From: a virus
IMG/VR virus record: IMGVR_UViG_3300042863_000489
Span: 1-33,892 of that record
Direction: 5' to 3' (one strand)
Length of the DNA stretch: 33,892 nt
The position numbers were made by a program, and so were the translations under genes. Positions 14,953-31,773 of this stretch are shown one piece after another (the first letter of the stretch is position 1; every line of letters begins with the position of its first letter). The notes beneath the pieces are model-generated. The model made no database searches and had not been told where the DNA came from. It saw only the letters and a program-made list of their open reading frames with translations.

Positions 14953-17900
14953 TTAGGTAAGTAACCGAAGCAACTTAGACATTTGACTAGATATCTCGCT
15001 TTGGCTATAGTAGTCAGAGCCAGACATAAAACCCTTCAAATCTTTAGTTGCTATGTTGGCATCCTTTTTTCCAATTTTAGCTTCCACGCGGGTAATCATC
15101 TTGTCCATCAAATCCTGTAGCGCAGGGGGGATATCGCTAAAACGGATTTTTTGAGCATCTTGACCAAAGGCAAAAGGAAGGTTAGCAATAACCGAACCTA
15201 GCTGCCCCGCTGAGAGTCTTACATTTTCTAAAGACTCTGCATTGAGTGCTCCAGTGTCTAACCTATCAATTACGCCTAATAAATCTCCAGCAGCATTGGC
15301 TGCACCAGCGTAATCTCCTGCGTTATCGAGATTTTCTGCTTCTTTAATCTTTTTCAACGCCTCATCTGAGCCAGAATCACCTAAATTAACTTTCAACCGA
15401 GCAAGCACTTGTCGAAACTTCCCCTTGGTATCACGGGGTTGTGTTTTAGGTGTATAGGTTCCTGACTTTTCTTCGGCCTTCTGCTTGCTCTTAACTTCTT
15501 TTTTTAGTAGGTCCAACTCTTCATCGGTAAGACCTTCTAGGTCCTTCTCTGAAATCTCTATAGCAAAAGCCTCTTCAGTGTCTCCACCATTGAGTATTAC
15601 AATTTCTTCATCTAAAGGCCCTGCTTTTGGCTTAAATACGCCTTTTTCTTCTTGATAAATCTTGGTTCCAAAAGTGCTTTTATTTTCAGTAGAAGCGACC
15701 ACAGATTCAACGATTGCGATGCGCTCTCTCAGGCTAGCAACCATGGACTCTGAATCAGACGCTTCTTTCCAACTAGCTGGAATAAGTTCTTTCTTATCAA
15801 GTTGGCGAGCCATCTTCGCAATGTGACGACGAACAACTCCACGCTTTCCTGGCTTAGAACGTCCGTATGCCTGAATAGCATTACGAAGGTCATTAGCGTT
15901 ACGAATTGGGAATGAGCCATCTGGAAGAGCCTTCTTCGACTCTGCAAGTTTCATGCGTTCTTTGCGTGTGATAACAGCAAGTTCTGCATCTGAATCATCA
16001 AGCATTTGAAGCATGTATGCAGAGTCTTCATTTCTTGCTGCCTTAACTTTATTTGAAAGTTCTTCTGCCTTAATTGCTGCAGTCATTGCTTGCATACGAG
16101 TTCTAGCATCTCCTGCGGCAGCAACTAATGGTGCTTCTAACTTATCAATTCTGCTATGAAGTTCTGCGAGAGGGTCGTGCTTTAGTTGAGCAAGAACACT
16201 TGCTCCAGCAGCAACAAGTGCCATTACCTGACCTGAAGCAACGCGAGCGCGAGCAATAGGGAATCCAGGAACGTTTACCTGACACACAGCAACAAGTTCT
16301 AGAGCACCCTTGATAGGTCTCCAGTCACCTGATGGTGCTGATGCACGAAGTGAGCGAATCTGTTCTGGACTAGTTCCAGGGCGAAGTGCTCCTGATACCC
16401 AGATGCCATAAGCATCTTCTCCTGCATGAACATCAGCAACTGCGGATGCTGTGTCGTCGTAGTGACGAACTGCTTCCTGAGCAGATGCTTCAAGTCCTGC
16501 GTGACCTCCAGCAAGAGTTAATTGACCTACAGGCATATCTACACCTTCTTCAGTGCGAACAACTCCTGTATGGAAGAATGCATAATTACTCTTACTGCGA
16601 GGAGGGCGAGTACCAAACGCCATTCCAATATGGTCCACATGCCAAGCGGCAATGTGACCAAAAACTTTTCCATCATCGGTTACAGTAAGAGCAGTTGGTT
16701 TTTTCAAACCAGGGTTGTTAAACCACTCTTTAGGTGGGGTTACTGGGATTGCTCCAGCTACCATTCCGCAAGCGATGAGTGCTGAAGCATCGAGAGGATT
16801 TACTCCTTCGACGTACACTCCATCTTGAATCACTTCTTCCTCCTGCTCTAGTCCCATCTCGTCAACAAGTTCTACCTTGCATTCTTGATATGCGGGCTTG
16901 GGTACAAGAGTTACAGCCATAACTCTTGCCTTTGTTATCTTCATTTTACCTGCTCCAACTTTGCCGTCAGCATCGTCTTTAGCAGCATTCTCATGCTCTT
17001 TTGCTTCGAACATATCTAAGTCAGCAGAAACTCCACGAATGAAGCCTCCACGGACCAATCTTTCCGCTTCTTTTCCATACTCTCCAGTGTCAAAATGCCC
17101 GTAAGCATTTCCAATACCATTTTCAACTCTTTCCATCTTTGTAATTATTCCAACTACAACTGATCCTGAATGACCTTCTCCAGTCTTGATTTGCCATAAA
17201 AATGGAAGAGGGAGGTCACGAATAGTGATTGCGCCAGCATCAAACTTGCGACCATCTCCTGATTCAGTTCCTTCTGGAATTACTAGAGGGATAAAGAAAC
17301 TTGCTCCCTGATTTTCTGAAACAGGTTCCTCACCAAATACTCTTATTCGAGCATCTTCTGCTCTTGCTCTAATAGTTGCTGAAGCAATCATCGCTTCTGA
17401 AGAAACAACAAAGTCGCTACTAAAAGCATTCCTTGCCTTACCCTTCTTTCCGAAGAGTTGTTTATGTTCTTTGTCACCAGTCCAAAGACCAGTTGCTTCC
17501 TTGTGACGAAGTGCGCAATAGCCTTTTGCTCGAGGACCCATGTACTTCGAGAGTTGACGAACGCATCGTGTCCAATCACCACCAGTTCCCCAACGAATCT
17601 TTGCTGCGCCTTTACCAGTTAACCAATATTGACGTAACTCTTCAGCGTTTCCTTTATTTCTATCAGCACCGCCTGCTGCAATCATTGCAGCAACAATCCT
17701 CATATCTGATTCATCGTAGCCAGAAGATGTCATTGGTTTGATTGAATCAACTTGCTCTAAAACAGTTGCTAGTGTTTCATCATCTAGTACAACAACTGGT
17801 GGAGGTGTAGGACTGTTGAGGTCATTAAGAACTTGTTCGTTCTTCTCCCACTTCCCAGGCTTACGAATAAATGTCATAGGACTAGTAGAGTTTGTTGATG

Positions 17901-20562
17901 CAGGAATGAGTGAAACTAAATCCATAACAGCCTGAGGGTCATCAGGAGAAACAATTGCCATATAAATTGGTGGAACATCTGAAGTATCTGGAGTTAATTC
18001 TTTTCCTGCTTCAGCAGCAGCAATAAGAGCAGAAGCTCGTACTGGCTTAACTCTTGCCCATGAACCATCTTCTTGCATAACAAAACCTTTAGCAACAACT
18101 CTATTCTTTGAGCCGTACCAAATTGATTTACCGTCTGAATACTTTGTACGAACTTGGCCAGTAAAGGGGTCTGTAAATGTTTTTAAAACCTTACCTACTT
18201 GACCATTAGGGCCAGTCTTAGAACTATCGTAAGAACCTGAAGGTGGATTTTTAGGGTCATTAGGTCCTATAGAACCGTCTTCGTAAAGTTTGAATCCCTT
18301 AGGAACAACTGTTCCCCTCTGTCCAAACCAAGTTTCTCCGTAAGCACCTCTATACTCTGTAGTTTCTTTTCCAGAAGCATCTTTAAACCTCTGTACAGCA
18401 GTGCCAAATTCTCCCTTGTCGTTAATTGCATCAGTAGACTCGCCAGGATAGATTGTTGCTCCTCCAATAGAGAATCCTGTAGAAGGTACGTATACGTACT
18501 TAGGTTCAGGTGCCTTGCGTTCAGTCGTATCTGGCTCTCCGCCAGAAGCTGGGTCATCACTTGGAGCTTTTCCAGTTCCTTTTGAACCAGGTGCTTTTCC
18601 TGTTCCACTACTTGGAGCACCACCAGAGGATGGATTACTTGGAGTACCAGGAGAAGATGGGCTACTAGGGGTACCACCAGAGGATGGATTACTTGGGGGG
18701 TTACCAGAAGATGGACTACTTGGATTTGTTGAAGAAGGTTTTGGAGCAAACCCTGCTGCTGGCTGTTGTAGCCAACTTTCAGGGTTCTTTCCAGGAGATG
18801 GAGTTAACTCGCTGGATGGTTTTGCACCTTCCACATCTCCTGGTTTAACTCCGCGTAAATCTGGACGATACCAAATTGCATTTGGATAAAGTGTTTCTCC
18901 GTTAGGAGCCTTAGATGACTTTTCTAGAAATGAACGAAGCGATGGGTCGTTGTAAGCATTAGGACTCTTGCTGTCCATTATCTGCTGAATAAGAGCAGAG
19001 CGTTCTGTAGGAGCAGCACCAGTATTTAATTTAGCTGTTCTAGCATCAGTAGCCCATGGAGAGAAGTCAGCAAGGATTGTATTTACTTGATTACTTCTCA
19101 ACTGAGGAAGTTTTCCAGGAGTGTTAGCAACAGGGCTGTCAATAGGTGTGCGAGGCTGTCCTAAAATATTACGAGTAATTTCTTTTGTAGAAGATGCTGA
19201 TTGAATTTGAGGCAGAGGTACAAAAGTATCTGCAGGTTCTGTTGTGTTTCCTGGAACATCTACAAATGCTCCGTTATCAAGTTTAATTTTTAATGTTTGT
19301 GTATCTGAGTTTGCAGATTCAACTGTTCCTGAGTATTTAGCGTTTCCACCAATAACTACACGGCCACCAGCTTTAGCAAACTCGCCATTCTTATTACGAA
19401 CCTGACCACGAGCCTTAGATGAACGCTCTTCTGGTGTGTAGTTTCCATCTTGGTCTGTAATAGTAGACTTTAAAGTTACAGAGTCTCCCTTTTCAGGAAC
19501 AGCTGCGGTAATTGAACTTCCTGAGTAATCTTCAAAACTTACATAGTTATCAGTGTTATCAAACAAGACTGCATCAATAAGTCCCCAGTCGACACCACTT
19601 ACTTGGTCAACAAAAAGTTGAGCCTCTTCAGGAGCTAGTTGGGAGATTGATACTGGTTCAAATGGGTTAGAGTCAAACATTCCGCAAAGAATGATTGATG
19701 TTTGAACATCTACAGGTACATGCATTTTCATAGTTCTGTCATACGGGTCGTCTAGTGAACGATCATATGTTTCAAAATCGTGATTTACATTTCCTAAGTC
19801 TTCCCACATACCGTCATCCCAAACAAAACAAGCACCATCTGGAATTACTTTATAAATACGGTCAACTTTTCCAGAGTCCAAACGGATTCGGATATAAAAC
19901 TGAGGAGCACTCTCTATAGGAAGTGTTTCTGATTCTATAAACGCATCGAACTCAATTCGACCAGGGCTTTCGTAGCCGCCCATGATGTGGTTGTAGGAGG
20001 CAGTAATTGAATTTGACTGAGCCTTCTTATTTTCACGGTCAACAATTGCTGATGCCCAACGCTCTGCGGCATCTCCACCCCAAAGTGCCCAAGCAATACG
20101 ACCATTTGATGGGTAGTTAGGTTCCCCTGGCTCGTAGCCCTTACCCTTTTTATCTACCTGATGGCGTGGAAAGTATTTAGCAATGTGGCGAACCTTGCGG
20201 ATTCCAATTTGTCCACCTTTAGCAAGAGTGCGAGCAGTATTTAAACCAACAGGTGTTCCGCCACGTTTTTCTTTTTTGCGCCACTCTAAAGCACGCTTTG
20301 CTTCTGCCTGAACTGCTTTTGGAATTGTATAAAGACGGTCATTATTTGAAAAAACCTTGACGTCTAAGTCTGTTGTAGCCGCTACTGCTAATTCGAAAGG
20401 TATGGAGTCTGGTGCTTTTTGGTCGCCAGAGGGAGTGAAAGAGGCAACTAGAACCTCTGAACTACCTACGGAAGAAACTAATTTTCTTTTCTCGTTGACA
20501 ACTACCGCTAATTCCCCTGCGGAAAATAAGACTTCATCGCCACTACGACCAATAAATAGCAT
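14953..20562 (-). CDS. Giant head-maturation protein with embedded S78-like prohead protease
   Basis: 1869 residues, ATG at 20562. Modules in order: a basic phage domain at about 80-180 (EKRGGTPVGLNTAR...NGRIAWALWGGDAAERWA); a beta region to 350; an NGEFAKAGG segment near 392; a Pro-Ser-Gly linker about 605-680; two related ~30-residue units near 735-765 and 805-835 (WFGQRGTVVPKGF and WYGSKNRVVAKGF); a domain about 945-1045 (ADRNKGNAEELRQYW...MGPRAKGYC). The S78-like protease spans about 1085-1235, with LPFLWQ, His1131 in GEGHSGS and Ser1179 in IRGVSADL as likely catalytic residues. Then come the actinophage GHIAAW...PGFPIAR block (1290-1440), a DUF6582-like piece (1545-1597) and a helical C-terminus. 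It precedes the capsid gene, as proteases usually do. The fusion of all these modules is unusual. Confidence 0.8.
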   Translation of the reverse strand: MLFIGRSGDEVLFSAGELAVVVNEKRKLVSSVGSSEVLVASFTPSGDQKAPDSIPFELAVAATTDLDVKVFSNNDRLYTIPKAVQAEAKRALEWRKKEKRGGTPVGLNTARTLAKGGQIGIRKVRHIAKYFPRHQVDKKGKGYEPGEPNYPSNGRIAWALWGGDAAERWASAIVDRENKKAQSNSITASYNHIMGGYESPGRIEFDAFIESETLPIESAPQFYIRIRLDSGKVDRIYKVIPDGACFVWDDGMWEDLGNVNHDFETYDRSLDDPYDRTMKMHVPVDVQTSIILCGMFDSNPFEPVSISQLAPEEAQLFVDQVSGVDWGLIDAVLFDNTDNYVSFEDYSGSSITAAVPEKGDSVTLKSTITDQDGNYTPEERSSKARGQVRNKNGEFAKAGGRVVIGGNAKYSGTVESANSDTQTLKIKLDNGAFVDVPGNTTEPADTFVPLPQIQSASSTKEITRNILGQPRTPIDSPVANTPGKLPQLRSNQVNTILADFSPWATDARTAKLNTGAAPTERSALIQQIMDSKSPNAYNDPSLRSFLEKSSKAPNGETLYPNAIWYRPDLRGVKPGDVEGAKPSSELTPSPGKNPESWLQQPAAGFAPKPSSTNPSSPSSGNPPSNPSSGGTPSSPSSPGTPSNPSSGGAPSSGTGKAPGSKGTGKAPSDDPASGGEPDTTERKAPEPKYVYVPSTGFSIGGATIYPGESTDAINDKGEFGTAVQRFKDASGKETTEYRGAYGETWFGQRGTVVPKGFKLYEDGSIGPNDPKNPPSGSYDSSKTGPNGQVGKVLKTFTDPFTGQVRTKYSDGKSIWYGSKNRVVAKGFVMQEDGSWARVKPVRASALIAAAEAGKELTPDTSDVPPIYMAIVSPDDPQAVMDLVSLIPASTNSTSPMTFIRKPGKWEKNEQVLNDLNSPTPPPVVVLDDETLATVLEQVDSIKPMTSSGYDESDMRIVAAMIAAGGADRNKGNAEELRQYWLTGKGAAKIRWGTGGDWTRCVRQLSKYMGPRAKGYCALRHKEATGLWTGDKEHKQLFGKKGKARNAFSSDFVVSSEAMIASATIRARAEDARIRVFGEEPVSENQGASFFIPLVIPEGTESGDGRKFDAGAITIRDLPLPFLWQIKTGEGHSGSVVVGIITKMERVENGIGNAYGHFDTGEYGKEAERLVRGGFIRGVSADLDMFEAKEHENAAKDDADGKVGAGKMKITKARVMAVTLVPKPAYQECKVELVDEMGLEQEEEVIQDGVYVEGVNPLDASALIACGMVAGAIPVTPPKEWFNNPGLKKPTALTVTDDGKVFGHIAAWHVDHIGMAFGTRPPRSKSNYAFFHTGVVRTEEGVDMPVGQLTLAGGHAGLEASAQEAVRHYDDTASAVADVHAGEDAYGIWVSGALRPGTSPEQIRSLRASAPSGDWRPIKGALELVAVCQVNVPGFPIARARVASGQVMALVAAGASVLAQLKHDPLAELHSRIDKLEAPLVAAAGDARTRMQAMTAAIKAEELSNKVKAARNEDSAYMLQMLDDSDAELAVITRKERMKLAESKKALPDGSFPIRNANDLRNAIQAYGRSKPGKRGVVRRHIAKMARQLDKKELIPASWKEASDSESMVASLRERIAIVESVVASTENKSTFGTKIYQEEKGVFKPKAGPLDEEIVILNGGDTEEAFAIEISEKDLEGLTDEELDLLKKEVKSKQKAEEKSGTYTPKTQPRDTKGKFRQVLARLKVNLGDSGSDEALKKIKEAENLDNAGDYAGAANAAGDLLGVIDRLDTGALNAESLENVRLSAGQLGSVIANLPFAFGQDAQKIRFSDIPPALQDLMDKMITRVEAKIGKKDANIATKDLKGFMSGSDYYSQSEISSQMSKLLRLLT

Positions 20563-20571
20563 TTTTACGCT

Positions 20572-20871
20572 TTACTCCGTCTCTTTAGGCGCAGACTCGT
20601 ACTCGGCAACCAATTCGATAGGAACAGCATAGTTTTCCATGTCTGCTGAATCGTATACAGGTATGAAGGCGGGGTCTACGTAGAAACTAATTGTCCCATC
20701 TAAATCAAACTCCCAATCGTCTTCTGGAGTGATTTCTTTCCACTGACCTTTGTCACGATAAAACAATCCATCAGCAGAGTCGTAAAAAATAGTGATTGCT
20801 TGGTCGATATCAGGGTTGCAAACACAAATCAAGTCCTGAGGTCTTTCGGGTTTATTTGGACTAAATGCCAT
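20572..20871 (-). CDS. Small acidic head-module protein, unknown
   Basis: 99 residues, ATG at 20871 with GAGGAGAAG upstream, two bases after the previous stop. I do not recognise a family. It is acidic and beta-rich, with no signal peptide or membrane segment. The stretch DGLFYRDKGQWKEI loosely resembles DGACFVWDDGMWEDL near residue 242 of the neighbouring 1869-residue protein, so the two may share a small beta domain. It lies between two giant structural genes and is probably co-expressed with them. Confidence 0.6.
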   Translation of the reverse strand: MAFSPNKPERPQDLICVCNPDIDQAITIFYDSADGLFYRDKGQWKEITPEDDWEFDLDGTISFYVDPAFIPVYDSADMENYAVPIELVAEYESAPKETE

Positions 20872-20873
20872 TT

Positions 20874-21284
20874 TTACTTCTCCTCTGTCTTATTGTCATT
20901 GCTTGGGGACTCGGGGAAGGTAGGCTCGTGAAGTTTAAACTCCCAGCCAGTGACTCCATTAGAAAATGCTGATAAATATGTCTTTGCATAATCAACAGCT
21001 TCTTCCCAAGAATCATATATATCATCTTCCGCATCTGCATCAATAAACATCATATTATAAATAATAAAATTAAGAACTTCGCCTGGTGATACAGATTTTT
21101 TATTTTCAGTTACTGCTTTAATACGTGCCCCGATTGCTGCACTCATCGGAATTATAGACTCCTCATTCATCCCGTCGGCATAGGCAATTCCATACTTGCT
21201 ACCATCCGTAATCACAATAAATGCAGGTGTCTCGTTACGACCATCTAGATGTGTATCAGAGTATAACTTATAATATGTTTTCAT
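20874..21284 (-). CDS. Small acidic protein in the head module, unknown
   Basis: 136 residues, ATG at 21284, with AGGAG ten bases upstream. I recognise no family. The N-terminus (MKTYYKLYSDTHLDGRNETPAFIVITDG) reads here as two beta strands around a loop, then helices follow, including the acidic DADAEDDIYDSWEEAVDYAK. The C-terminal ~15 residues are charged and probably disordered. No transmembrane segment is visible. It is flanked by the two giant genes and likely made with them. Confidence 0.6.
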   Translation of the reverse strand: MKTYYKLYSDTHLDGRNETPAFIVITDGSKYGIAYADGMNEESIIPMSAAIGARIKAVTENKKSVSPGEVLNFIIYNMMFIDADAEDDIYDSWEEAVDYAKTYLSAFSNGVTGWEFKLHEPTFPESPSNDNKTEEK

Positions 21285-21299
21285 TTATCTATATCTCCT

Positions 21300-24200
21300 T
21301 TATCGGAAAGTTAACAAAGTATCAACGAATTTTTCAGGGTTTTTAAGAATGTAATCTGCTCTTGCAATAAGATATTCGTTTGCTCTAGCGTCTCTAAACT
21401 TCATAGCCTCTGCACGCTCTCGCATACGAGTAGCAAACTCGACCACCTTAGCAACTGCAGCAGGTTTCTGCTCGCCATTTGCAATTTGATCTGGCGTATA
21501 TCCTTGGTTAATAAACTGCTTAGCAAGTCTTCCTACCTGATTAAAGTTTCCATAATTACCCAGAACCACCTTGTTTGGGTCTAGGTGTAACGGATTATTT
21601 ATGTTCTTCTCTGGCTCACCGAATGCGCCGTTAAACATTGCAAGTCCATTATCAATAGGTACAAGTCTTGCTTTTCCTGTCGCAGGATCATTTCCCCACA
21701 TAAAGTTTCCTCCATGTCGGTCCGTGTTTCCGATAATTGCATTGGCAACTAGGAAGTGGAGCAACTCTTCACGATGTGCAGCACTAACTTGGTCTAGACT
21801 ATATACAGCAGATTTATTATGGACTTCAATGTTTACAAGACCAAAGAATCCTGCATCAGCATATTGCATAACGCCAACTCCTCCAATATCTGGAGTAAGG
21901 TTGTCAGGATTGATTACAGCAACTGCAGGCTGAGCAAACCCTAAATCTCTATAAAGTTCCGCAACCATTTCTTCAGCTTTAATTCCATTTCCTTTGAAAT
22001 CTCCTCTATTGCCGTCATTATCGTATTTAATAACGATTCTTTCGCCTGTAAGAGCATTTCTTAGTAAAAATACAGTGTTAAGGTTGTTTGCTGCGCTAAG
22101 TTTCTTTTCAAACTTCCAGTTACCGTAGCCATTTAGTAAGTCTTTATATCCAAGACCTTCAAACTCTCTAGCAATATCTGCTAAATGGTTCGCCATATCA
22201 TCGTTTGGTACTTCGCGGGAAGGTACTTTTGGAAGGTCTCCAACGGCATCAAAACGTTTCTTAAGGTCTTTCAATCTGTCTATAACTACAGCATCTGCTG
22301 GTACAGGGTTAGGTCTATCAATTGAAGCAAGAATTGCATCAATATCTCCACGACCCCTAACTATGGCAGCTCTAAAGTTAGGGTTGTAGACATCTGGATT
22401 TACAAGTAAGTCGTTATAAGCATTCATAAGAGAGTCAACTCTTCTTCTGCCATTATAGTCAAGTCTTTTTGCTAACTCTAACTCCATATTATTACCAAAG
22501 AACTCGGGATGCATCTCTCTAAGGTCTGCAATTTTATTATTAAAATCTTCTCCGCCATCACGGATAGGAAGCTTGTCTACTCTCTTTTGTAGAGCAGCAA
22601 TTTTCTGAGCCTCCTCAAACCAGCCAAGGACTACTGCATAACGATAGGCCACACCAAGATCGCTATTAAATCTTGCATTTTGACGACGGTCTACTCCTCC
22701 TAGTGCATCAGCACCATTACCAACTGCTAAACGTAGCTCGATAGACCTTCTTAGTCTTTGTTGCTGATCTGGTGTTAAGTCTTTTCGAGCATCTCCAGGC
22801 AACTCTTTATCTCGGAGAGCGACAGCTAGGTCCATAGCGCGAGCTTTTGCTTCTTTGAGTTGAATTGCTTTTACTGCAGGAAGTGGAGGTACATCTGGTG
22901 TATCAACAGTTAATACAGGTTGCTCTACTGGATCTGGGAAACCTCCATAAGCTCGAAGAACTTTTTCTCCATCATTAGAGTCAGCAACTTCTCCAATAAA
23001 CTGTCCAATAACTCCTTGAACTTCACCTAAGGATATGTTTTTGGCGATAACTGCATTGAGGTCGCCATTCTCATTAAATACAGCAGCCTCATACATATCA
23101 TCAATTTTTACTACACTAATTTTAAATTTGTTACCTTTTTGGTCCTCAACCTCTGCTTTATAAATAGGCTTAGGCATGCCTGGAGCAACGGGTGCGGCAG
23201 GCTTACCTTCAGGAGTATCTAAAAGTCTTCCTTGTTCTGGAGCAGGAGGTACTGGACGCTCTCCTCTTACATCTTCTGGGAATAAGTTAGCATCACGATC
23301 ACCAGATTGTGGAGGACTTGCAGGAGCAGGATTTGCTGGAGCATTAGGAATCATAGCCCCACCTCTGAATCTAGGGTCTAAGACTAAGTCGTCGTAGTTA
23401 CCCTCATATAACTCTAGGTATCCAGCTTTAACATCACGACCAGCGTTGCCTAGAACCCAGTCAAGGTTACCGCCTTCAAACTGAACTAATAACTTATTAG
23501 CCTGAACTTTTCCAGCACGTACTTGGCCTCCAGCTTTTTTACCTTCTCTAACTTGTGCACCAATACGATTCTTTACAACTCCACGTCCCCATTCAGGGTG
23601 TTTTGGATGTATAACAACATCTCCTGGCTTAATTGGGACACCATTTTTATCTTTAAATAATCCTTCTTCTTCTTTCTGTCTTGCTACAGGTCTTCCTGTT
23701 TTTGCTCTAACTTGCTCAGAGAGAGGGGCACGCTCAATTAATCCACGCTTTCCTCCGCGAGGCGCTGCCTTTACGGGTGGAATTGTCTCTGCTTGGTCTT
23801 CAATACCAAGACGACGAACATTGCGAAGTGGAGAATCCATTACAAAGAATCGATCTTCTTCTTGGTTATTGTAAACATTGAAGACTCTAAACTCTATACG
23901 TCCTAAATCTGCTGGTTTCATTTCAAGAATTTGTTCGTAGCGATCATAGAATGCATTGTACAAAAAGTCACCAACCTGAAGGTCTTTTGCTTCGGTTGGT
24001 AGAAGAACTCCAGCATTTGCTATTACATACTCGTTATTCTTGATAACGGCTATATCGGCTTCACTAAGGTCTTTAGGCTTAGTTTCAGGAGCAGGAGGTG
24101 GTGTAGTGCTCTTTGCCATTTCCATCTTATCCAAGGTAAAGACCTTGAATACTCCATCAGGACCGTCTTCTATAGCACGAAGATTTACATTGCCGTTCTT

Positions 24201-27200
24201 TGGATTAGTCCAGATACTCTGTGGAGTGACAACTCTGTTCTTTCCATTGTAAGAGAAAGCAATTTTCTGACCCTTATCAATTGCAGATTGAATCTCTTCT
24301 TGAAGGTTAGGACTGTTTACATCAACAGCAACAACAGATTCTGCTTGTGAAGATGGTGCAGAAATATCCTTCTCTTCTTGATCAACAAAATTAAATGGCT
24401 TTTGTTCTCTCTCTTCAAGAACTTTTAATCCTTCTTCACGAGGGAGCTCATTGAGTGCCTCCATAGCAGTCTTGCCATACATGCGCTTCATATCGGCTTC
24501 GGCAACAGCCTGAGCATCACCGCGATCCATATCTTCTTCTGCTTGATACTTGTCTGCTAGTGCCTCTTCTTGATCTAAGAACTCTTTTACATACTCTCTC
24601 TTAAATTTGGCAATTAGTTCTTTGTTGTCAGTCGTATCTAAGCCCTTAGGTGTTGGCGCATCGATATCCATACTGACATTTGCTCTATCCCAACCTTCGA
24701 ACCAATCTTTCATCAATTGATTTCTCTCTGCAGAAGATTTACCTTCCATCAGATTTACAAGGTCTGGGTCAGCCGCTGCATTGCGCTCCTTTCCTTTAGC
24801 AAATGCATTTTTGCCAATTTCTTTAGGATCAGACGGAAGTGTTCCTGAGTCCAAACCGTTTAGTGCTTCATCCATATCTTTGGCATACTTATCAAACTGA
24901 GCGTCACTCTCCCAATCGATTCCACCATCCATATCAATACGAGCAACAACAGGGTCTCCTGGCTCCCAATTATCTGGGATTACCTCAATGTTTTCAGCTT
25001 TAGCACCAAATGCTCCTCTATTAATTACAAAGTTAAGACCGTTAGCCTTATACCCATCTCTCTCGTTCTTATTAATCTCTGCAACAAGGTTATCTAAGAC
25101 AGGCTTTTCAATCAAAGGATTTTCTGGTGTCGCATCCTTTGGTGGGTCAACAATAGTTTGTTCTGTAGAGTCACCAGAAGGAGCGTCTCCTGCCTGTGCA
25201 AGAATCTTTTCATTCTTACCAAACTCTGACCAGCGTGCTTTTTGTTGAGGGCTAGGTAGGTCCACTGCAAATGAGTTAACCCAATCAACAAGTGCGTCAG
25301 CATAGGCAGGTGTGTGATTATCTGGGTTAGCAAAGAAGTCAGCAAGTTCTTGCTGGGACATTGAATCAAATGAAGCAATCTGCTCATCGGAGTATCCGTA
25401 TTGTTTTGCAATCTCTGCTACACGCGCACGAGCAGCAGAAGAGTATTCTGCTCTTTGGTTTTCTAGGTCTGCCTTTAAATCGTCCCAGTTATCATAAGAT
25501 TTATCTGGAGTAAGCTCATTGCGGTCTCTAACAGTAATCTTTCCATCTTTATCAACTGTTGCTTCAAAAGTGTTGTTTCCATAAACGTTATAGAAGTTAT
25601 CTGGATCAGCGTCTAGTCCCCTTCTCCGATACTCAGCGCCCCAACCTTCAGGAATAGTGCGTCCCAGATCGTCAACGCCGTCTTCGGCATCTTTCTTAAG
25701 CTTTGCTACACGCTCATCAACTGCGTCTCTTTCTGCCTTCTTCTCTGCCATCAAACGCTCGTAAGCATTCATAGGCTTCGGTTCGGCAGGGGTGTCTAGA
25801 GGAAGTTCCGCCTGTGGGTCTGCTTCCTTACCAAACTTCATTGGTGGGTCCATGATCATGCCAGGGTCATCTTTACCTTCAAGAGAACGTGCGTAATCGG
25901 CTTCGAGTCGTCGGACTTCTAGGCGAGTAAGGCCAAGGTCTTCTGCAACCTTGTCCAATGAGTCACCTGTTGCAATGCGACGTTCATAAATTTCTTTACC
26001 TAGTGACTTGTCATCTTTATCTGGACCAAAGTTCATTGGAGGGTCCATGATCATGCCAGAATCATTTTCTTCTAAACGAGTCATTAACTTATCTACAACG
26101 TCTGCAGCTTCAGCAGAGTTCTTGCCGTTAGGGAAGATGCCTTCTCCTGGACTTTCTAAGCCGTCCATTATTTCATAGGCAGTACCAAGAGATGAAAGAG
26201 CAGATTTTGTATCTCCTGCTTCAAGATACTCTTTTGCTTCCTTGAGGTGGCGTTGTGCTTCAGAGATACCCATAGCTCTGTCTTCAGTAGTGCCTTCTTC
26301 ATCCATGTGCTTATCTAAGAAATCTAATGCCTTATTTACATCTTTAGCATCTTGATCACTTGGCTTAACAAATTGACCTTCAGGTAGAAACTTCGCGGGT
26401 TCAAATCTCTCGCCTCTAGGGTCCTTTGGAGGGTCCATAATGATTTCATCTACAGATTTTTTATCTTTATCTGGACCAAAGTTCATTGGAGGGTCCATAA
26501 TCATTTCATTATTCTGACCAGCAAAACCTTCATCAGAAATTTTCTTGATAAATTCATTTGTATCTACACCTTGAAGTTGTAGCGCATCACGCACTGCTTC
26601 TCCTGGAATGTTAGCAACAAACTCTTCGCCATCTTCATCTTGAAGTGAGATGTTTGCATATCCTGGTGTTGCAGAATCTGGTTCGATTGAACGGCGAAGC
26701 TCTGCTTCTAGGCTCTGCTTATCAATTGACTGAGCAAGGAATACTGGGTTATCACTAAAGCCTTCTGGAAGAACTGCATCAGGTGTATCAGCAGTTACTT
26801 CACGCCAAGAAGAAAAAGGAGATGGGTCAAGAGTGCTATAGCCCTCTGGCATATCGATTGATTCGTTCTCTGGAAGATAAGGAGTATGGTCCCCTGTCTC
26901 TATAAACTGTCTCATCTCCGCGTCTGATAAACCTTCAAGAACTGGAGGAAGGTCCATCTCTGCTTCACTAAACTTTGGTACTTCAGTTGCTGGGACCTCA
27001 TCTGGGTTCATAGCAACAGTGCGTTCAAATGATTCTGCAACATCTGGCTTTGATTGGTCAAGGCGTGCTATGCCCTTACGGTTATCCTTAAGAGCGTTCT
27101 CGTTGTTGTTGCTGCCTAAACCTTTGTCATAAATACGTGCGAGTTCTAGAGCAGCATCTTCTCCTGCTTCATCAAGTGCGTTATAAAGTGCTTGTACAGG

Positions 27201-28640
27201 AACATACTCATCTCCACCGTTAAAACGAAGAACACCATAACCAACAGCATTGTCTCCCTTATTTTCAGGAAGAACACCTTGCTCTAAAGCTTGAATTAAA
27301 TCTCTAGGGTCAAACTTTTGACCAAGTTCTACAGGGTCATCTGTAAAATCTGGACTCTCTTCATCGACACGACCTTCAGGGTCGTATGACTCATCAATTT
27401 TAATTTTAACTGCGCCTTGAGGATATTTAAACTCGAAAGGTTTTGGAGTCTTAGGTCCTCCTCCGTCACCACCACGTCCGCCTCCACCCTTACCATCTTT
27501 TGGTGGGTCCATGATGATTTCTTCTACAAACTTATCATCTGAAGGAAGGACAGCTTTCTTTCCTTCTTTCTTTTCTGCAATGTTATCTAGAGCATCTTCC
27601 CAGTCGCCACTGCTAGTGCCTACTGTTTTTCCAGCAGGGTCTTTAATCTCATATTGATAGTAGCCATTTTTATCTCTACCTTTTTCAATACCCCAGCCAT
27701 CCTCGGAGTTCCAAGTGTTGGTGCCAGTCTTACTCCACCCCTGAGGTGCATCTACATAGACTAAATCTTCTTCGTTAATGATGTTCTTAGTTGTTGCTGT
27801 CTTTGCAGTGTTTTTACTATATCCATCTGAAGTAGGATTAATAACAGCCTTGATAAACATACCTTTTGATGCGGGAATGTTTACAATTTTTCCATCAGGA
27901 AGTTCCATCTGAATGTCATCGCCATTAGGTCCATCAATGATTGGGCGACCTACAAGGTTATAAACTCTGCCATTACTTTTACGAACGAGGGCACTAAGTC
28001 CTCCACCCATAAATGCGAATTTACCTTCACGGTCACGACGCTGCAAGCGAGCACGAAGTGAGCGCTCTGCACTTGAGTTTCCACCTGAGAATGGATTACT
28101 AGCAGCAACAATAACCTCTGCAGGAACTACGCCCTGAGGAAGGCTAGAAAGAATAGAGTTGTAGTAGACATGTTCTACAGATGCGTACTTGGATGTAAGA
28201 GCAGAAGCAATAATTGTTTTTGCATATCCATCAACAATGCGAGGGTCATCAGCAACCCAACGTGCACGAGCTTCGGTAAGAGCAGAAGCAGTCATTGAGT
28301 GGTTGCGGGTAGAACGTGGATGTGAGACTGGTAGAAGGTCTGTATTAGAAAGAGTAAGAGAAGTAGACTTATCACTTTGAGCAAGAGTGATGTACTGAGA
28401 AAGTTCTCTGATAGCCATGTGCTCACGGAGTGAGAATGGAAGATTGCGTGTTGACTGTAGTGAGCGAAGTACAACTGTGAAAGCAGCCTTCTTTGTAATC
28501 TTACGACTCGTAGACGCGTTTAAGTTTGCTTGGTCGACAATTCCAAAAGCGGTGTCACGAATACGTGATGCCTGCTGAGATGCCAGTGCGCGGCGACCCT
28601 CTTCAGAAATTACTTGGCTTAAGCGGCGAATACGGCTCAT
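21300..28640 (-). CDS. Giant multidomain head-module protein with C-terminal atypical kinase domain
   Basis: 2446 residues. ATG at 28640 overlaps the upstream stop as TAATG. The helical N-terminus contains DLLPVSHPRSTRNHSMTA (100-117), shared with the upstream gene, then REGKFAFMGGG near 205. Disordered stretches carry six MDPP-type motifs. Two related beta-alpha units lie about 432-510 and 630-710. A helix-turn-helix-like piece is at about 877-923, a WYL-like domain at about 1440-1510 and a KOW/CarD-like stretch (GDVVIHPKHPEWGRGVV) at about 1665-1735. Residues 2147-2446 look like a HipA or PI3/4-kinase-type fold: Lys2205 in ERIVIKY, the catalytic loop NTDRHGGN (Asp2307, His2309, Asn2312) and Asp2330 in VPIDNGLAM. 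It probably enters the virion and may act as an injected effector. That role is inference. Confidence 0.8.
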   Translation of the reverse strand: MSRIRRLSQVISEEGRRALASQQASRIRDTAFGIVDQANLNASTSRKITKKAAFTVVLRSLQSTRNLPFSLREHMAIRELSQYITLAQSDKSTSLTLSNTDLLPVSHPRSTRNHSMTASALTEARARWVADDPRIVDGYAKTIIASALTSKYASVEHVYYNSILSSLPQGVVPAEVIVAASNPFSGGNSSAERSLRARLQRRDREGKFAFMGGGLSALVRKSNGRVYNLVGRPIIDGPNGDDIQMELPDGKIVNIPASKGMFIKAVINPTSDGYSKNTAKTATTKNIINEEDLVYVDAPQGWSKTGTNTWNSEDGWGIEKGRDKNGYYQYEIKDPAGKTVGTSSGDWEDALDNIAEKKEGKKAVLPSDDKFVEEIIMDPPKDGKGGGGRGGDGGGPKTPKPFEFKYPQGAVKIKIDESYDPEGRVDEESPDFTDDPVELGQKFDPRDLIQALEQGVLPENKGDNAVGYGVLRFNGGDEYVPVQALYNALDEAGEDAALELARIYDKGLGSNNNENALKDNRKGIARLDQSKPDVAESFERTVAMNPDEVPATEVPKFSEAEMDLPPVLEGLSDAEMRQFIETGDHTPYLPENESIDMPEGYSTLDPSPFSSWREVTADTPDAVLPEGFSDNPVFLAQSIDKQSLEAELRRSIEPDSATPGYANISLQDEDGEEFVANIPGEAVRDALQLQGVDTNEFIKKISDEGFAGQNNEMIMDPPMNFGPDKDKKSVDEIIMDPPKDPRGERFEPAKFLPEGQFVKPSDQDAKDVNKALDFLDKHMDEEGTTEDRAMGISEAQRHLKEAKEYLEAGDTKSALSSLGTAYEIMDGLESPGEGIFPNGKNSAEAADVVDKLMTRLEENDSGMIMDPPMNFGPDKDDKSLGKEIYERRIATGDSLDKVAEDLGLTRLEVRRLEADYARSLEGKDDPGMIMDPPMKFGKEADPQAELPLDTPAEPKPMNAYERLMAEKKAERDAVDERVAKLKKDAEDGVDDLGRTIPEGWGAEYRRRGLDADPDNFYNVYGNNTFEATVDKDGKITVRDRNELTPDKSYDNWDDLKADLENQRAEYSSAARARVAEIAKQYGYSDEQIASFDSMSQQELADFFANPDNHTPAYADALVDWVNSFAVDLPSPQQKARWSEFGKNEKILAQAGDAPSGDSTEQTIVDPPKDATPENPLIEKPVLDNLVAEINKNERDGYKANGLNFVINRGAFGAKAENIEVIPDNWEPGDPVVARIDMDGGIDWESDAQFDKYAKDMDEALNGLDSGTLPSDPKEIGKNAFAKGKERNAAADPDLVNLMEGKSSAERNQLMKDWFEGWDRANVSMDIDAPTPKGLDTTDNKELIAKFKREYVKEFLDQEEALADKYQAEEDMDRGDAQAVAEADMKRMYGKTAMEALNELPREEGLKVLEEREQKPFNFVDQEEKDISAPSSQAESVVAVDVNSPNLQEEIQSAIDKGQKIAFSYNGKNRVVTPQSIWTNPKNGNVNLRAIEDGPDGVFKVFTLDKMEMAKSTTPPPAPETKPKDLSEADIAVIKNNEYVIANAGVLLPTEAKDLQVGDFLYNAFYDRYEQILEMKPADLGRIEFRVFNVYNNQEEDRFFVMDSPLRNVRRLGIEDQAETIPPVKAAPRGGKRGLIERAPLSEQVRAKTGRPVARQKEEEGLFKDKNGVPIKPGDVVIHPKHPEWGRGVVKNRIGAQVREGKKAGGQVRAGKVQANKLLVQFEGGNLDWVLGNAGRDVKAGYLELYEGNYDDLVLDPRFRGGAMIPNAPANPAPASPPQSGDRDANLFPEDVRGERPVPPAPEQGRLLDTPEGKPAAPVAPGMPKPIYKAEVEDQKGNKFKISVVKIDDMYEAAVFNENGDLNAVIAKNISLGEVQGVIGQFIGEVADSNDGEKVLRAYGGFPDPVEQPVLTVDTPDVPPLPAVKAIQLKEAKARAMDLAVALRDKELPGDARKDLTPDQQQRLRRSIELRLAVGNGADALGGVDRRQNARFNSDLGVAYRYAVVLGWFEEAQKIAALQKRVDKLPIRDGGEDFNNKIADLREMHPEFFGNNMELELAKRLDYNGRRRVDSLMNAYNDLLVNPDVYNPNFRAAIVRGRGDIDAILASIDRPNPVPADAVVIDRLKDLKKRFDAVGDLPKVPSREVPNDDMANHLADIAREFEGLGYKDLLNGYGNWKFEKKLSAANNLNTVFLLRNALTGERIVIKYDNDGNRGDFKGNGIKAEEMVAELYRDLGFAQPAVAVINPDNLTPDIGGVGVMQYADAGFFGLVNIEVHNKSAVYSLDQVSAAHREELLHFLVANAIIGNTDRHGGNFMWGNDPATGKARLVPIDNGLAMFNGAFGEPEKNINNPLHLDPNKVVLGNYGNFNQVGRLAKQFINQGYTPDQIANGEQKPAAVAKVVEFATRMRERAEAMKFRDARANEYLIARADYILKNPEKFVDTLLTFR
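26013..26048 (-). repeat. 36-bp exact repeat within the giant kinase gene, copy A
   Basis: Identical to 26463-26498, exactly 450 bases (150 codons) away. It encodes MDPPMNFGPDKD in both places, which points to internal duplication of a linker motif. Confidence 0.85.
26463..26498 (-). repeat. 36-bp exact repeat within the giant kinase gene, copy B
   Basis: Second copy of the repeat at 26013-26048. The two copies are in the same frame and orientation. Confidence 0.85.
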
Positions 28641-30004
28641 TAGTTGTCATCCTCTTCTTCTTCTGAACTTGGTAGTAAATCTGCGTCAAGACTGAGTTCT
28701 CCGTGTAGTGCTAATAGAGACGCTCTTCTAAACGGGTCTCCACCTGCACGAACTGCACGAAGCCAAGATGCTCTAATTGCATCTTCTGCTTCATACCCTG
28801 CTCCAGAAAACTCTGCCATAGCAAGGATGGCATCCTCTGGAGAATTATAGTCCTCTTTACTTCCTAGAGATATTGATAATTCTCTATCAAAGCGATACTC
28901 CTGCAGAATGTCTTCTGTTAGCTTGTTTTCGTTTCCGAGTTTTTCGCCTTCGAGAACTCCGACATCAACGACCCCATCTGGAATAACCGCGAAACGACAC
29001 TTACCTTCGTCTTCGACTTCTTGTTCGATGATTCTGCACGATCCATTACCCATGTATAGAACGCAAGAAGAGCACTTGACTCCGATTCCCTTGTATTTAT
29101 TTTCTTCGGCTGAGGCGTATCCTGCCCAAATTCCTGTGGCATCTTCATTAAACTTTCCATACTTCTCAGCGATTTCGACGAGAGCATTAGCTAGGTCTGA
29201 CTCTTCTGGAACTAAACCAGCAGCGGCAGTAATTGAGTTGTCTCTTTTTGTTGAACGAGGGTGTTTAGCTGGGAGTAAATCATTATCTGTTGTGTAAGCA
29301 GAGTTTGTTGGCTTACCTGATTTAAGAAGTTTAAGGAAAGCGTTGACACGGCCCATAGCCCACTGATTACGGTTCATTCCAGGCCGGTGAGATGTAGAAA
29401 ATGCTCCTGCGCCACGGCGATATACAGCCTTAAGCATTCCTAGAGAGGCTTTTCTACCTTCTGGTGCTTTTTCATTGTGTTCTTTGACTTTGGTAGAGAG
29501 GGTGTTTTCTGTTGCTTTACTAAATACAACTTTTCTAGTTCCAGATGCTGAACCTTTTTTATTTTTGCTAGAGCCTTTTATTTTATCTTTTTTAGGAGCA
29601 GGAGTTTGAGAGATAGTTCTTTTTCCTGCAGCAGTCACTGGGCCGCCAGCAACCCACGCACGGCAGGTGCGTGCTGATGCGCATTTGAAGTCGAAGATTT
29701 CGCAGTATCCAAGTTCTCCTGCTGCATCAATTGATTCAAACTCATCTGCGTTATCTGTTAAGCCTGTTTCAATACAAGAAAGCATCTCTGGAGTCTGAAT
29801 AAATACAGCGCAGTTACCGCAAGTTTGTTTCTTTGCAGTTTCAGCATCTACATTCCACTCTTGACCAAGTGCGTTCCAATACTCTTCGTTTGGTTCCGCA
29901 GGATTAAGAGGTCCATACATCGCAGTGTCAATTGCCTTCTTACGATTAGTAAGATTAAGTGCAATGTCCTGTGTAGCAGGAGGGCAGCCGTTAATTTCAG
30001 CCAT
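28640..30004 (-). CDS. Head-module protein with two Cys-rich modules
   Basis: 454 residues, with ATG at 30004 overlapping the portal stop (TAATG). The first Cys module has Cys62, 65, 77, 101, 108 and 114 (TCGNCAVF...GYCEIFDFKCASARTC). The second has Cys311, 314, 323 and 336 (KCSSCVLY...GSCRII...GKCRFAVIPDG). The spacing recalls HiPIP-like iron-sulfur or zinc-binding modules that occur in phage head proteins. Between them lies a phage domain about 158-250, HRPGMNRNQWAMGRVNAFL followed by DNDLLPAKHPRST. The C-terminus is acidic. The position after the portal suggests a capsid-interior or portal-associated protein. Function is unknown. Confidence 0.7.
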   Translation of the reverse strand: MAEINGCPPATQDIALNLTNRKKAIDTAMYGPLNPAEPNEEYWNALGQEWNVDAETAKKQTCGNCAVFIQTPEMLSCIETGLTDNADEFESIDAAGELGYCEIFDFKCASARTCRAWVAGGPVTAAGKRTISQTPAPKKDKIKGSSKNKKGSASGTRKVVFSKATENTLSTKVKEHNEKAPEGRKASLGMLKAVYRRGAGAFSTSHRPGMNRNQWAMGRVNAFLKLLKSGKPTNSAYTTDNDLLPAKHPRSTKRDNSITAAAGLVPEESDLANALVEIAEKYGKFNEDATGIWAGYASAEENKYKGIGVKCSSCVLYMGNGSCRIIEQEVEDEGKCRFAVIPDGVVDVGVLEGEKLGNENKLTEDILQEYRFDRELSISLGSKEDYNSPEDAILAMAEFSGAGYEAEDAIRASWLRAVRAGGDPFRRASLLALHGELSLDADLLPSSEEEEDDN

Positions 30005-31773
30005 TACTGCTCTGTTTCTGGGGCTGGCTCTGCTGGAGCTGCTGTCTCAGGGGTTGCTGTGGCTCCCTTAAGAATGTCTTCAAGCCCTGGTGGAAGCGGA
30101 GCAACAGAGGCTGCTTGTTGAGCACTGCGAACTGCTTCCATCATCTCTGGGGCAACAGTTGCAAGCATTGATTCTGTAAGTTCTGGAGTGATTGCACCCT
30201 TTTCAAACAACATACGAATTGCGATTTCATTTGATGTAGGAGCATCTGCGTTTGAGAAACCATGAGCGCGACGCCATGTCTCGTAAGAAACAGCGCCACG
30301 GTCAAATCCTGAATCTGCATCCGTTGCGCGGTCATTGCGAGTAGCAACTGCTGATGGGTCATACCAAACAACAATGCGGTCAACATCTGAAGGAGAATAG
30401 CCTTGAGCAATTAAGTATGGACGCAGGTAAACAATTGTTAGAGCATCAACAATAAGAAGCATCAAAGGCTCAATGTGCGCCTTGTAGAGTCCTTCGTCAA
30501 TCTGTAAAGCGTTTGAATACTTAACATTTGCTAAGCCAGTAACAACATCTTTAGGAACATCTAGTCCCTGAAGGATGCGCTCTAGAACACGGTCTGCGCG
30601 TTGTGCAAGTGCTGGGTCGAATGAACGCTCAAACTTAAACTGCTTAATCTTGTCACCAAGTTCAGCAGGTCCGCGAATAATAAGTGGAACAACAGCGGAT
30701 GCAGACTCTTCATCACGAATCGGAGTTGTCATCGCATCGATGAGTTGGTCTTCAAACTCGTCTTCTGCTTCTTCTGCTGTGAAACCAGGATCTGTTTGAC
30801 CATCTCCATCTTCATACGGATAGTCTGGGTCGCCTTGTGCAGCAACTGACAAACCATCTGGAAGATAAAGTGCGCCAGCGTTTAGGCGAGAGCGTGCTGT
30901 TGCACGGAACGTTCTGTTAAGAAGAAGTAGTTCTGCGCAAAGGTCTAGCAGACCGCGTATTGAAGAATCTGATTCATCAGAAAAGCGTGGATGTGAACGC
31001 CAGATGCGACCAACAAATGCGCTGGTACCTAAATGAGTTGTTGGGCCAGTATTTCCGCCACCACTTGTTTGCTCACGGCGACTTACTACGTTGTATCCGC
31101 CACGAGCATCTATAACTACTTCATCTACAGAACGAATATCCCAAGACTCTGGAATACCTGAGCCCTTACGCTCTGGCATCTGCACTAGATAACATTCGCC
31201 AGCCACCGAAAGGTTGAGTGCAGCATCTCGGAGGAGACCAGCTTGTCCACCGTATGCAGAATCAAGACGAGAAAGTGCTCGCTCTGCTGCAGCAGATAGT
31301 TGTTTATCTAAAGTTGTTGAAGAACGTACTGATGTTGGAGCCTGAGAAGGGTCATCAATTACTGCTGGAAAAATTCTGATTCGTGATACAACTGATGCAA
31401 CAAGATTGAATGCATATTTGATTTCACCAATTGCGTCGTAGTACTCCCATGCTTCTGCTTGCCATGCACTTGAAGCAGCAGAGCGGCGATTTCTAAATTG
31501 CTCTGATTCACCTTTGTCATTTAGCTTTACCTGTACCGCTGCTGCTGTAAGAGAGCGAGGTTGGTTATATGGAACTGCTTGCGCTTGATTTGTTTGAGAT
31601 AGGAATACAGATGCGGCTCCACTGATTATCGGAGCAGCTTGAGGAATTCTAGATTGTGTGCGAGAACGAGTTGTCTGCTTCGACTGTGTTTTTTTCTTAG
31701 GAGCAGATTTCTTTTTTGGCACGGAGACGGGAGTAGAGTCATTGTTTGGTTCGCTGCGCTTAAATACGCTCAC
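30004..31773 (-). CDS. Portal protein
   Basis: 589 residues. The N-terminal ~45 residues are very basic (KKKSAPKKKTQSKQ) and disordered. The core from about 100 to 510 has portal-like features: WEYYDAIGEIKYAFNLVASVVSR, then AGECYLVQMPE and NRTFRATARSRLNAGALYLPDG, then QGLDVPKDVVTGLANVKYSNALQI near 405-430 (split by natural turns), and a helical stem after it. The C-terminus is Pro/Ala-rich. The portal is the dodecameric ring through which DNA is packaged and ejected. RSLTAAA at 73-79 may be a processing site that removes the basic arm. Start and overlap with the next gene (TAATG) are clear. Confidence 0.88.
   Translation of the reverse strand: MSVFKRSEPNNDSTPVSVPKKKSAPKKKTQSKQTTRSRTQSRIPQAAPIISGAASVFLSQTNQAQAVPYNQPRSLTAAAVQVKLNDKGESEQFRNRRSAASSAWQAEAWEYYDAIGEIKYAFNLVASVVSRIRIFPAVIDDPSQAPTSVRSSTTLDKQLSAAAERALSRLDSAYGGQAGLLRDAALNLSVAGECYLVQMPERKGSGIPESWDIRSVDEVVIDARGGYNVVSRREQTSGGGNTGPTTHLGTSAFVGRIWRSHPRFSDESDSSIRGLLDLCAELLLLNRTFRATARSRLNAGALYLPDGLSVAAQGDPDYPYEDGDGQTDPGFTAEEAEDEFEDQLIDAMTTPIRDEESASAVVPLIIRGPAELGDKIKQFKFERSFDPALAQRADRVLERILQGLDVPKDVVTGLANVKYSNALQIDEGLYKAHIEPLMLLIVDALTIVYLRPYLIAQGYSPSDVDRIVVWYDPSAVATRNDRATDADSGFDRGAVSYETWRRAHGFSNADAPTSNEIAIRMLFEKGAITPELTESMLATVAPEMMEAVRSAQQAASVAPLPPGLEDILKGATATPETAAPAEPAPETEQ

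Follow-up and report, generated by a model that had tools for sequence, protein, structure and literature searches.

Gene Organization of the Locus

The virus record IMGVR_UViG_3300042863_000489 of the IMG/VR collection is a linear DNA of 33,892 bases, which was analysed over its full length and is referred to here as the window. Its minus strand holds a head-to-tail module in which the genes follow one another in the order portal, Cys-rich protein, a giant protein of 2446 aa, two small genes, a 1869-aa protein with a protease region, the major capsid protein, and then the genes of the tail. The subject of this article is the giant head-module protein (21300..28640, minus strand), an open reading frame (ORF) of the polyvalent type placed in family alignment A4, together with the gene behind it. 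The C-terminus of the giant is an atypical kinase domain (residues 2125-2446 as modelled; 21303..22268, minus strand), very probably of the active type, and a gene for a protein of 136 aa (20874..21284, minus strand), which starts 15 nt past the kinase stop codon, is exchanged between phages together with the kinase and is a candidate cognate inhibitor or regulator.

An earlier, sequence-only reading of this DNA had located the kinase-bearing gene between the Cys-rich head gene and the prohead protease gene, and this location holds, with the Cys-rich gene on one side, the protease-containing gene on the other, and two small genes standing before the latter. The host is likely an actinobacterium, as can be deduced from the portal protein, which is closest to that of DSL-LC01 (73%), itself a metagenome-assembled phage according to the text covered of PMC10611076, and next to the portals of large Microbacterium, Arthrobacter, and Gordonia phages.

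The C-Terminal Kinase Domain

The three motifs that had suggested a HipA- or phosphatidylinositol (PI)-kinase-like domain, ERIVIKY, NTDRHGGN, and VPIDNGLAM, start at residues 2200, 2305, and 2327 of the giant, and their key residues are intact and conserved in relatives, with Glu2223 as a further position added here. On the minus strand, these residues comprise Lys2205 (22026..22028), the putative ATP-binding lysine, which is kept in 23/23 covered domains; Glu2223 (21972..21974), its putative partner, kept in 22/23; Asp2307 of NTDRHGGN (21720..21722), the putative catalytic Asp, found in 26/27 domains; Asn2312 of the same motif (21705..21707), found in 27/27; and Asp2330 of VPIDNGLAM (21651..21653), the putative metal-binding Asp, kept in 26/26 covered domains. 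Alignment A1 consists of ten kinase C-termini from environmental virus contigs, nine of which are 19-59% identical to that of the window, the tenth, and K2205, E2223, N2305, D2307, R2308, H2309, N2312, D2330, and G2332 are invariant in all ten; the key residues persist in relatives as distant as ~20% identity. The pattern DRHxxN is kept in 26 of 27 distinct kinase domains, a count biased by its being both one of the search patterns and the mark by which the relatives were first spotted, and the Lys and Glu residues offer a fairer test of conservation because they occur in no search pattern.

At E<=1 in Pfam, PI3_PI4_kinase matched every A1 member (10/10) and HipA_C matched eight. The scores of the window's kinase fall below both curated cut-offs (27.0 vs 27.1 bits for PF00454; 18.4 vs 30.5 for HipA_C), so the domain is regarded as a superfamily relative and is filed in neither family. 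Profile comparison with the Protein Data Bank (PDB) gave weak matches (E 0.012 to 2.2) to PI 4-kinase type II, CtkA, FAM20, and actin-fragmin kinase, and a phmmer search of PDB sequences with the single domain gave no match. An AlphaFold model of the domain (pLDDT 75.2, pTM 0.79) found HipT (1.0e-4) and CtkA (2.2e-4) as its top Foldseek matches; among the VIA-align matches listed, CotH, HipA, HipT, CtkA, and PI kinases reached Z 9.9-11.8 over 211-252 residues, including CotH (Z 11.8, 236 aligned, rmsd 4.0), HipA (Z 11.4, 226 aligned, rmsd 3.9), and PI4KIIbeta (Z 11.0, 235 aligned, rmsd 4.7). The closest viral structure model belongs to a protein of an uncultured phage annotated with a PI 3-/4-kinase domain. 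The ratio of nonsynonymous to synonymous substitution rates (dN/dS) was 0.07-0.28 in five kinase pairs, indicating purifying selection, the values being rough for two comparisons with the window, where dS is near or above 1.

The C-terminus is thus very probably an active-type kinase close to HipA/HipT, CotH, CtkA, and the PI 4-kinases, because its residues are invariant in relatives, its predicted fold matches atypical kinases, and dN/dS is low. The assignment made from the letters alone is thereby borne out, both by the Pfam matches across A1 and by the atypical-kinase fold of the prediction; comparison of a predicted structure with HipA and PI3K folds, which had been proposed as a check, returned HipT, CtkA, HipA, CotH, and PI kinases. 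A chance occurrence of the motifs was rejected on the grounds of residue conservation and predicted fold, and a dead pseudokinase is made unlikely by the invariant residues and low dN/dS.

The likeness to lipid kinases raises the question of the substrate. The kinase could phosphorylate phosphatidylinositol of the host membrane rather than a protein, and in line with this, the top solved-structure profile match is PI 4-kinase type II (NTDR..N, IDNGLA; E 0.012), and actinobacteria produce phosphatidylinositol. The structural matches include protein kinases (HipA, HipT, and CotH) alongside lipid kinases, and a lipid substrate, which would also be compatible with the delivered kinase favoured below, is considered distinctly unlikely.

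One scan of genome contigs with A1, using a single DRH-centred pattern, revealed no close cellular source from which the kinase could have been captured as a host gene; it returned 11 distant loci, from Clostridia and relatives, Acholeplasmatales-type organisms, Brevundimonas, and Campylobacter. Two Stenotrophomonas phages, Pokken and Piffle, matched only part of the N-lobe (E 8e-4 and 3e-3), and neither a type-B kinase nor a type-B partner had a match among phage records.

The Giant as a Polyvalent Carrier

The frequency of kinase ends was assessed in a sample of 80 portal relatives that had not been selected for the kinase, 13 loci of which, the split L071 being excluded, carry a complete giant in the same slot. 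These giants are 1,939-2,969 residues long, the split L015 excepted, the other loci of the sample being cut by contig or locus ends. The 3' end of the giant is complete at all 13, and at 10 of them, including L006, which is nearly identical to the window, it encodes a kinase; the remaining three are L016, which is ArdC-type, L015, in which the next ORF resembles ArdC-type giants, and L022, which has no recognised end. A second sample, collected through the protease protein and overlapping with the first in contigs, gave kinase ends at 8 of the 11 loci reaching the end of the giant and ArdC-type ends at 3/11, after L115 and L116 had been dropped for not reaching it.

When 18 giants were scanned together, a kinase was found in nine (E<=0.01), an RNase_T exonuclease in nine, and Sigma70_r4 in two, with single members each for ArdcN, MPTase-PolyVal, ADPrib_exo_Tox, and UvrD helicase domains. 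In Pfam, the window's own giant yields only the kinase, under the cut-off, and a short DUF3553 match. Among cultured phages, the ends differ: Mimi gp77 carries an apparent metallopeptidase and Sixama gp75 an ADP-ribosyltransferase (ART). The giant is therefore a large multidomain protein with exchangeable effector domains and relatives with hallmark domains, and it is a member of the known class of polyvalent proteins, an assignment that follows from the ArdC, MPTase-PolyVal, ADP-ribosyltransferase, helicase, and exonuclease domains of relatives in the same slot. A likeness to MuF-type phage proteins with C-terminal toxin domains had been suggested as a precedent. This did not stand: profile searches gave no MuF match for the giant (Pfam E<=10, PHROGs E<=1), and a MuF fusion was rejected. 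A short linker motif, I-M/V-DPP, occurs in six copies between the modules of the giant, at residues 375, 713, 733, 863, 928, and 1163.

Exchange of the Kinase Together with Its Neighbouring Gene

The kinase end and the gene that follows it form one swappable cassette that is exchanged between phages, so that giants ~95% identical at the N-terminus can bear kinases ~20% identical. In a blastn comparison (E<=1e-10) of the window with the near-identical L119/L010, DNA similarity breaks off at 22911 and is found again from 20874, where the stop codon of the partner ends, which delimits a swapped cassette (20874..22910, minus strand) comprising a pre-kinase stretch, the kinase, and the partner gene. 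Between L088 and L107, a second near-identical pair, similarity likewise returns at 11344/10829, at the first codon past the partner domain. At the protein level, the giants of the window and L010 are 97% identical over residues 1-200 and 24-25% identical over residues 2001-2400, and the same drop is seen between L051 and L056 (97% N-terminal identity, then 27-28%) and between L059 and L056 (98%, then 34-36%). The reverse pattern is found between L056 and L103, whose N-termini are 53% identical, their kinases 90%, and their partners 94%. Across 13 loci, the distances of kinase and partner are closely correlated (r 0.930; partial r 0.928 given the N-terminus, a value reached in 0/20,000 permutations), whereas those of kinase and N-terminus are not (r 0.153), in a test that does not model shared ancestry. 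The locus thus shows the arrangement of polymorphic toxin-immunity systems, in which the N-terminal part is conserved while the C-terminal effector varies and moves together with a small gene beside it.

The partner gene follows the kinase in 16 of the 17 distinct kinase-bearing giants of the portal lineage with enough downstream sequence, distinctness having been judged by the last 150 residues, with the cut L059 dropped and L051 counted through a second locus, L088; the partners of L020, L034, and L056 are themselves cut by contig or locus ends. No partner match was seen without a kinase in front, no partner follows the ArdC-type giants L120 and L122, and a search with one partner alone recovered six contigs, all already known as kinase-bearing. 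For the partner, dN/dS was 0.06-0.19 in three pairs, and its predicted structure has a pLDDT of 81.4. Searches of Pfam, PHROGs, and PDB sequences returned nothing convincing for it, with a best Foldseek E of 0.36.

The nature of the partner admits more than one explanation. Of the 15 aligned partners, nine form the N-terminal portion of a protein that carries a Cys-rich CPPATQ domain, the two being joined through a putative protease site, so the partner might enter the virion and be set free there; the other six are free small proteins. The fused cases keep alive the alternative that the partner is an activator, a chaperone, or a missing piece delivered with the kinase, rather than an inhibitor, and the free ones weigh against it. 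Exchange as a pair is usual for toxins and their immunity proteins, although it is compatible with an obligate subunit too, and this alternative, which is compatible with packaging and shares part of its probability with the explanation favoured below, is regarded as possible but on the unlikely side.

The location of the kinase among head genes and the cases in which the partner is fused to a conserved domain of the head module could also point to a role in head morphogenesis, in which the kinase would phosphorylate head proteins or time maturation and the partner would be its regulatory subunit. Phages with related head genes (the ArdC-type L016 and L120-L122, as well as Mimi, Sixama, and DSL-LC01) have no kinase match, and the swapping of unlike kinases in near-identical heads would be odd for a core assembly enzyme; such a role is accordingly judged quite improbable.

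Two further observations concern the neighbourhood of related kinases. For the kinases found in other groups of phages (L092, L093, L095, and L098-L101), there was no match to this partner. In six of these loci (L092, L093, L095, L098, L099, and L100), the kinase, of the same superfamily, is followed by another small gene, possibly forming further kinase-partner pairs, and a small gene after a kinase means little alone in dense phage genomes. The second small gene of the window encodes a conserved protein of 99 aa (20572..20871, minus strand), with relatives also in ArdC-type phages without a kinase. In the Microbacterium phage Pumpernickel, gp83 (L108 24678-25295), which follows the kinase, has by eye an apparent extra N-terminal part before a domain resembling this 99-aa protein, and that part could be an unrelated partner.

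A Putative Maturation Protease Motif Among the Head Proteins

The motif [LIVM]TA[AS] recurs at the borders of the portal, Cys-rich, giant, protease, and capsid proteins and is, judging from its distribution, a probable cleavage site of the prohead protease. In the giant, it occurs as MTAS at residues 116-119 (PRSTRNHSMTASAL; 28284..28295, minus strand), and 35 of 53 giant rows have it in an ST...TAS context near residue 116. On the same strand, it is present as LTAA at residue 75 of the portal protein (phrog_776; 30004..31773), as VTAA at residue 123 and ITAA at residue 258 of the Cys-rich head-module protein with DUF5824 (28640..30004), at residues 186, 351, and 1493 of the 1869-aa protein with a Peptidase_S78-like or head maturation protease region (14953..20562), and as VTAA at residue 274 of the major capsid protein (12663..14780), which has two more matches at 461 and 600; the site at residue 274 directly precedes the well-conserved part of the capsid protein.

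In the window, seven head genes contain 10 sites vs 1.47 expected and 13 other ORFs contain 1 vs 1.43 expected, in a shuffle test that ignores local composition. Head-gene enrichment was also found in DSL-LC01 (P 0.00068), Pumpernickel (P 0.028), and Mimi (P 0.00012). Furthermore, in 12 of 13 proteins with a CPPATQD domain, the motif lies <=30 residues before that domain, irrespective of the part fused ahead of it (0.15 expected), in a count that also allowed Ala in first position and in which the proteins are not all mutually independent.

Several side observations were made in this part of the window. Residues 1096-1522 of the protease-containing protein match phrog_859 (E 5.6e-89), which PHROGs names 'portal protein', a label that seems mistaken for a protein containing a head protease. 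At ~18642-18662, in a Pro/Ser/Gly-rich stretch of the same protein, the near-identical contig L001 has a short deletion (1851 vs 1869 aa). In BLAST rows of relatives, the products of 575-2986, 3014-4171, and 10635-11681 in the tail region seem to have a common repeated domain of ~60-70 residues.

Proposed Mechanism

The kinase fold with its conserved residues, the purifying selection, the polyvalent family, the cassette swap, the co-inheritance of the partner, and the motif recurring near domain borders were all computed here, and the exchangeable C-termini, the kinase travelling with the downstream gene, and the maturation-protease-like motif common to the head neighbours are points beyond the sequence-only reading. 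As the best explanation of these data, we infer packaging, cleavage, injection, inhibition, and the substrate as follows, packaging and injection being supported indirectly by the gene position and the motif. The giant would be produced together with the head proteins and taken into the prohead, where the prohead protease would trim it at a [LIVM]TA[AS] site; it would then pass with the DNA into the next host, and the injected kinase would phosphorylate a host target. The product of the downstream gene would be the cognate partner, most likely an inhibitor silencing the kinase in the producing cell, and kinase and partner are exchanged between phages as a single unit, in the manner of polymorphic toxins and their immunity proteins. 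That the kinase is a packaged, trimmed, and injected effector on a polyvalent head protein, with a cognate regulator that is probably an inhibitor, is favoured by a small balance of probability. A more specific version is put forward tentatively and with greater doubt: an in-virion polymorphic effector-immunity system of actinobacterial phages, in which the kinase resides on the ejected giant, the co-swapping inhibitor is parted from it during protease-driven maturation, and the kinase is active only in the next cell.

A number of points weigh against this explanation. With regard to the kinase, the solved-structure profile matches are weak, with ribosomal protein L11 among them, the Foldseek TM-scores are low (0.41-0.43 for HipT and CtkA), ordinary kinases such as CK1 and p38 also turn up, and in the cultured phage Pumpernickel, gp82 ends in a kinase with a visible motif and a weak profile match (E 5e-4). 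With regard to the partner, Pumpernickel is the sole exception of the 17, having no partner match after its kinase, and because of the fusions to CPPATQ, the partner may itself enter the head, where a co-delivered subunit fits as well as an inhibitor. Its fold has no convincing match (best Z 3.5), and the chains read as HipS subunits, from their length alone, are tied with unrelated rows: of 994 chains compared, 24 reach Z>=2, and these include 7ab3_E, from a HipBST entry (Z 2.3), and 7vkb_B, from a bacterial kinase complex (Z 2.0). With regard to the motif, it was defined after examples had been seen; enrichment in the head genes of Sixama is not clear (P 0.078); and the control genes of DSL-LC01, Pumpernickel, Mimi, and Sixama (P 0.1, 0.42, 0.37, and 1) were a hand-picked part of the annotated genes. 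Six of the 53 giant rows have the motif only elsewhere and 12 have it nowhere, some giants having LSAA, LSGA, or LSAS at the expected place, and the giant of Pumpernickel lacks the motif, while that of Mimi has one site only, at residue 2322.

The giants that lack the motif would suit an unpackaged kinase, which would be made late and work in the cell that produces the phage, perhaps to counter superinfection. This is the role proposed for the HipA-family kinase of the 'Gratiaviridae' (PMC8008677, in the text covered), with the same gene position and the same kinase superfamily, and a mobile kinase-regulator pair would also be compatible with an abortive-infection toxin-antitoxin role. Such a kinase would have less reason to sit in a polyvalent giant, in a slot where the ArdC, metallopeptidase, and ART domains of relatives make sense on entry, and a protease-like motif is common to many giants, the capsid, and the portal; this alternative is therefore thought unlikely.

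Comparison with Known Systems

The comparisons below rest on the text covered of each source, with few subscription papers among the literature searched. Polyvalent proteins (Iyer et al. 2017, PMC5512222) are alike in being very large multidomain proteins in a head-gene neighbourhood, and the relatives of the window's giant carry MPTase-PolyVal, ArdC, ART, helicase, and nuclease domains as they do. The kinases described there differ, as they belong to the Ser/Thr/Tyr superfamily, lack the C-terminal subdomain, and occur primarily in Verrucomicrobia-Chlamydia and Bacteroidetes; 'HipA' and 'PI3' are absent from the main text, and the part covered describes no co-swapped partner gene. The HipBST, HipJ, and HipIN toxin-antitoxins (PMC8262856) resemble the present pair in having a HipA-like kinase beside a small partner, and in HipM, HipI, and HipJ, the putative antitoxin gene lies downstream, in the same order as in the window. 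These families are toxin-antitoxin operons, whereas in the window, the kinase forms the end of a giant encoded in the head module, and the HipS likeness of its partner amounts to no more than Z 2.3.

The 'Gratiaviridae' gut phages share a HipA-family kinase gene between the portal and major capsid genes and, in the text covered of PMC8008677, are unlike the window in that neither a partner nor a fusion to a polyvalent protein is described. In polymorphic toxins (PMC3482391), among them MuF phage-capsid-like systems, there is also a variable C-terminal effector exchanged with an adjacent small gene; the peptide kinase reported there is lantibiotic-synthetase-like and belongs to another delivery system, and the giant has no MuF match. 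Injected phage effectors are known chiefly as ADP-ribosyltransferases and nucleases (PMC9503650). Each element thus has a precedent when taken singly: phages with a HipA-like kinase encoded between portal and capsid have been described, as have polyvalent proteins that bear kinases of other types and HipA-type kinases whose antitoxin genes lie downstream. In the literature searched, no fusion of a PI-kinase-like or HipA-like kinase to a head protein or a polyvalent protein was found, and what appears new is the combination, in which an atypical kinase is the exchangeable end of a polyvalent head protein and its partner is swapped along with it.

Biological Implications

Because the kinase is exchanged together with its neighbouring gene, as toxin-immunity pairs are, phages with a kinase-ended giant may deliver a regulated kinase into the cells that they infect. 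This reading is testable, since a related kinase end is also present in a cultured relative. If it is true, it would supply pairs of kinase and inhibitor for study and would explain how a harmful enzyme can be made in a cell that is needed for phage assembly, and a delivered kinase with an exchangeable regulator would add to the means by which phages can rewire their hosts at entry.
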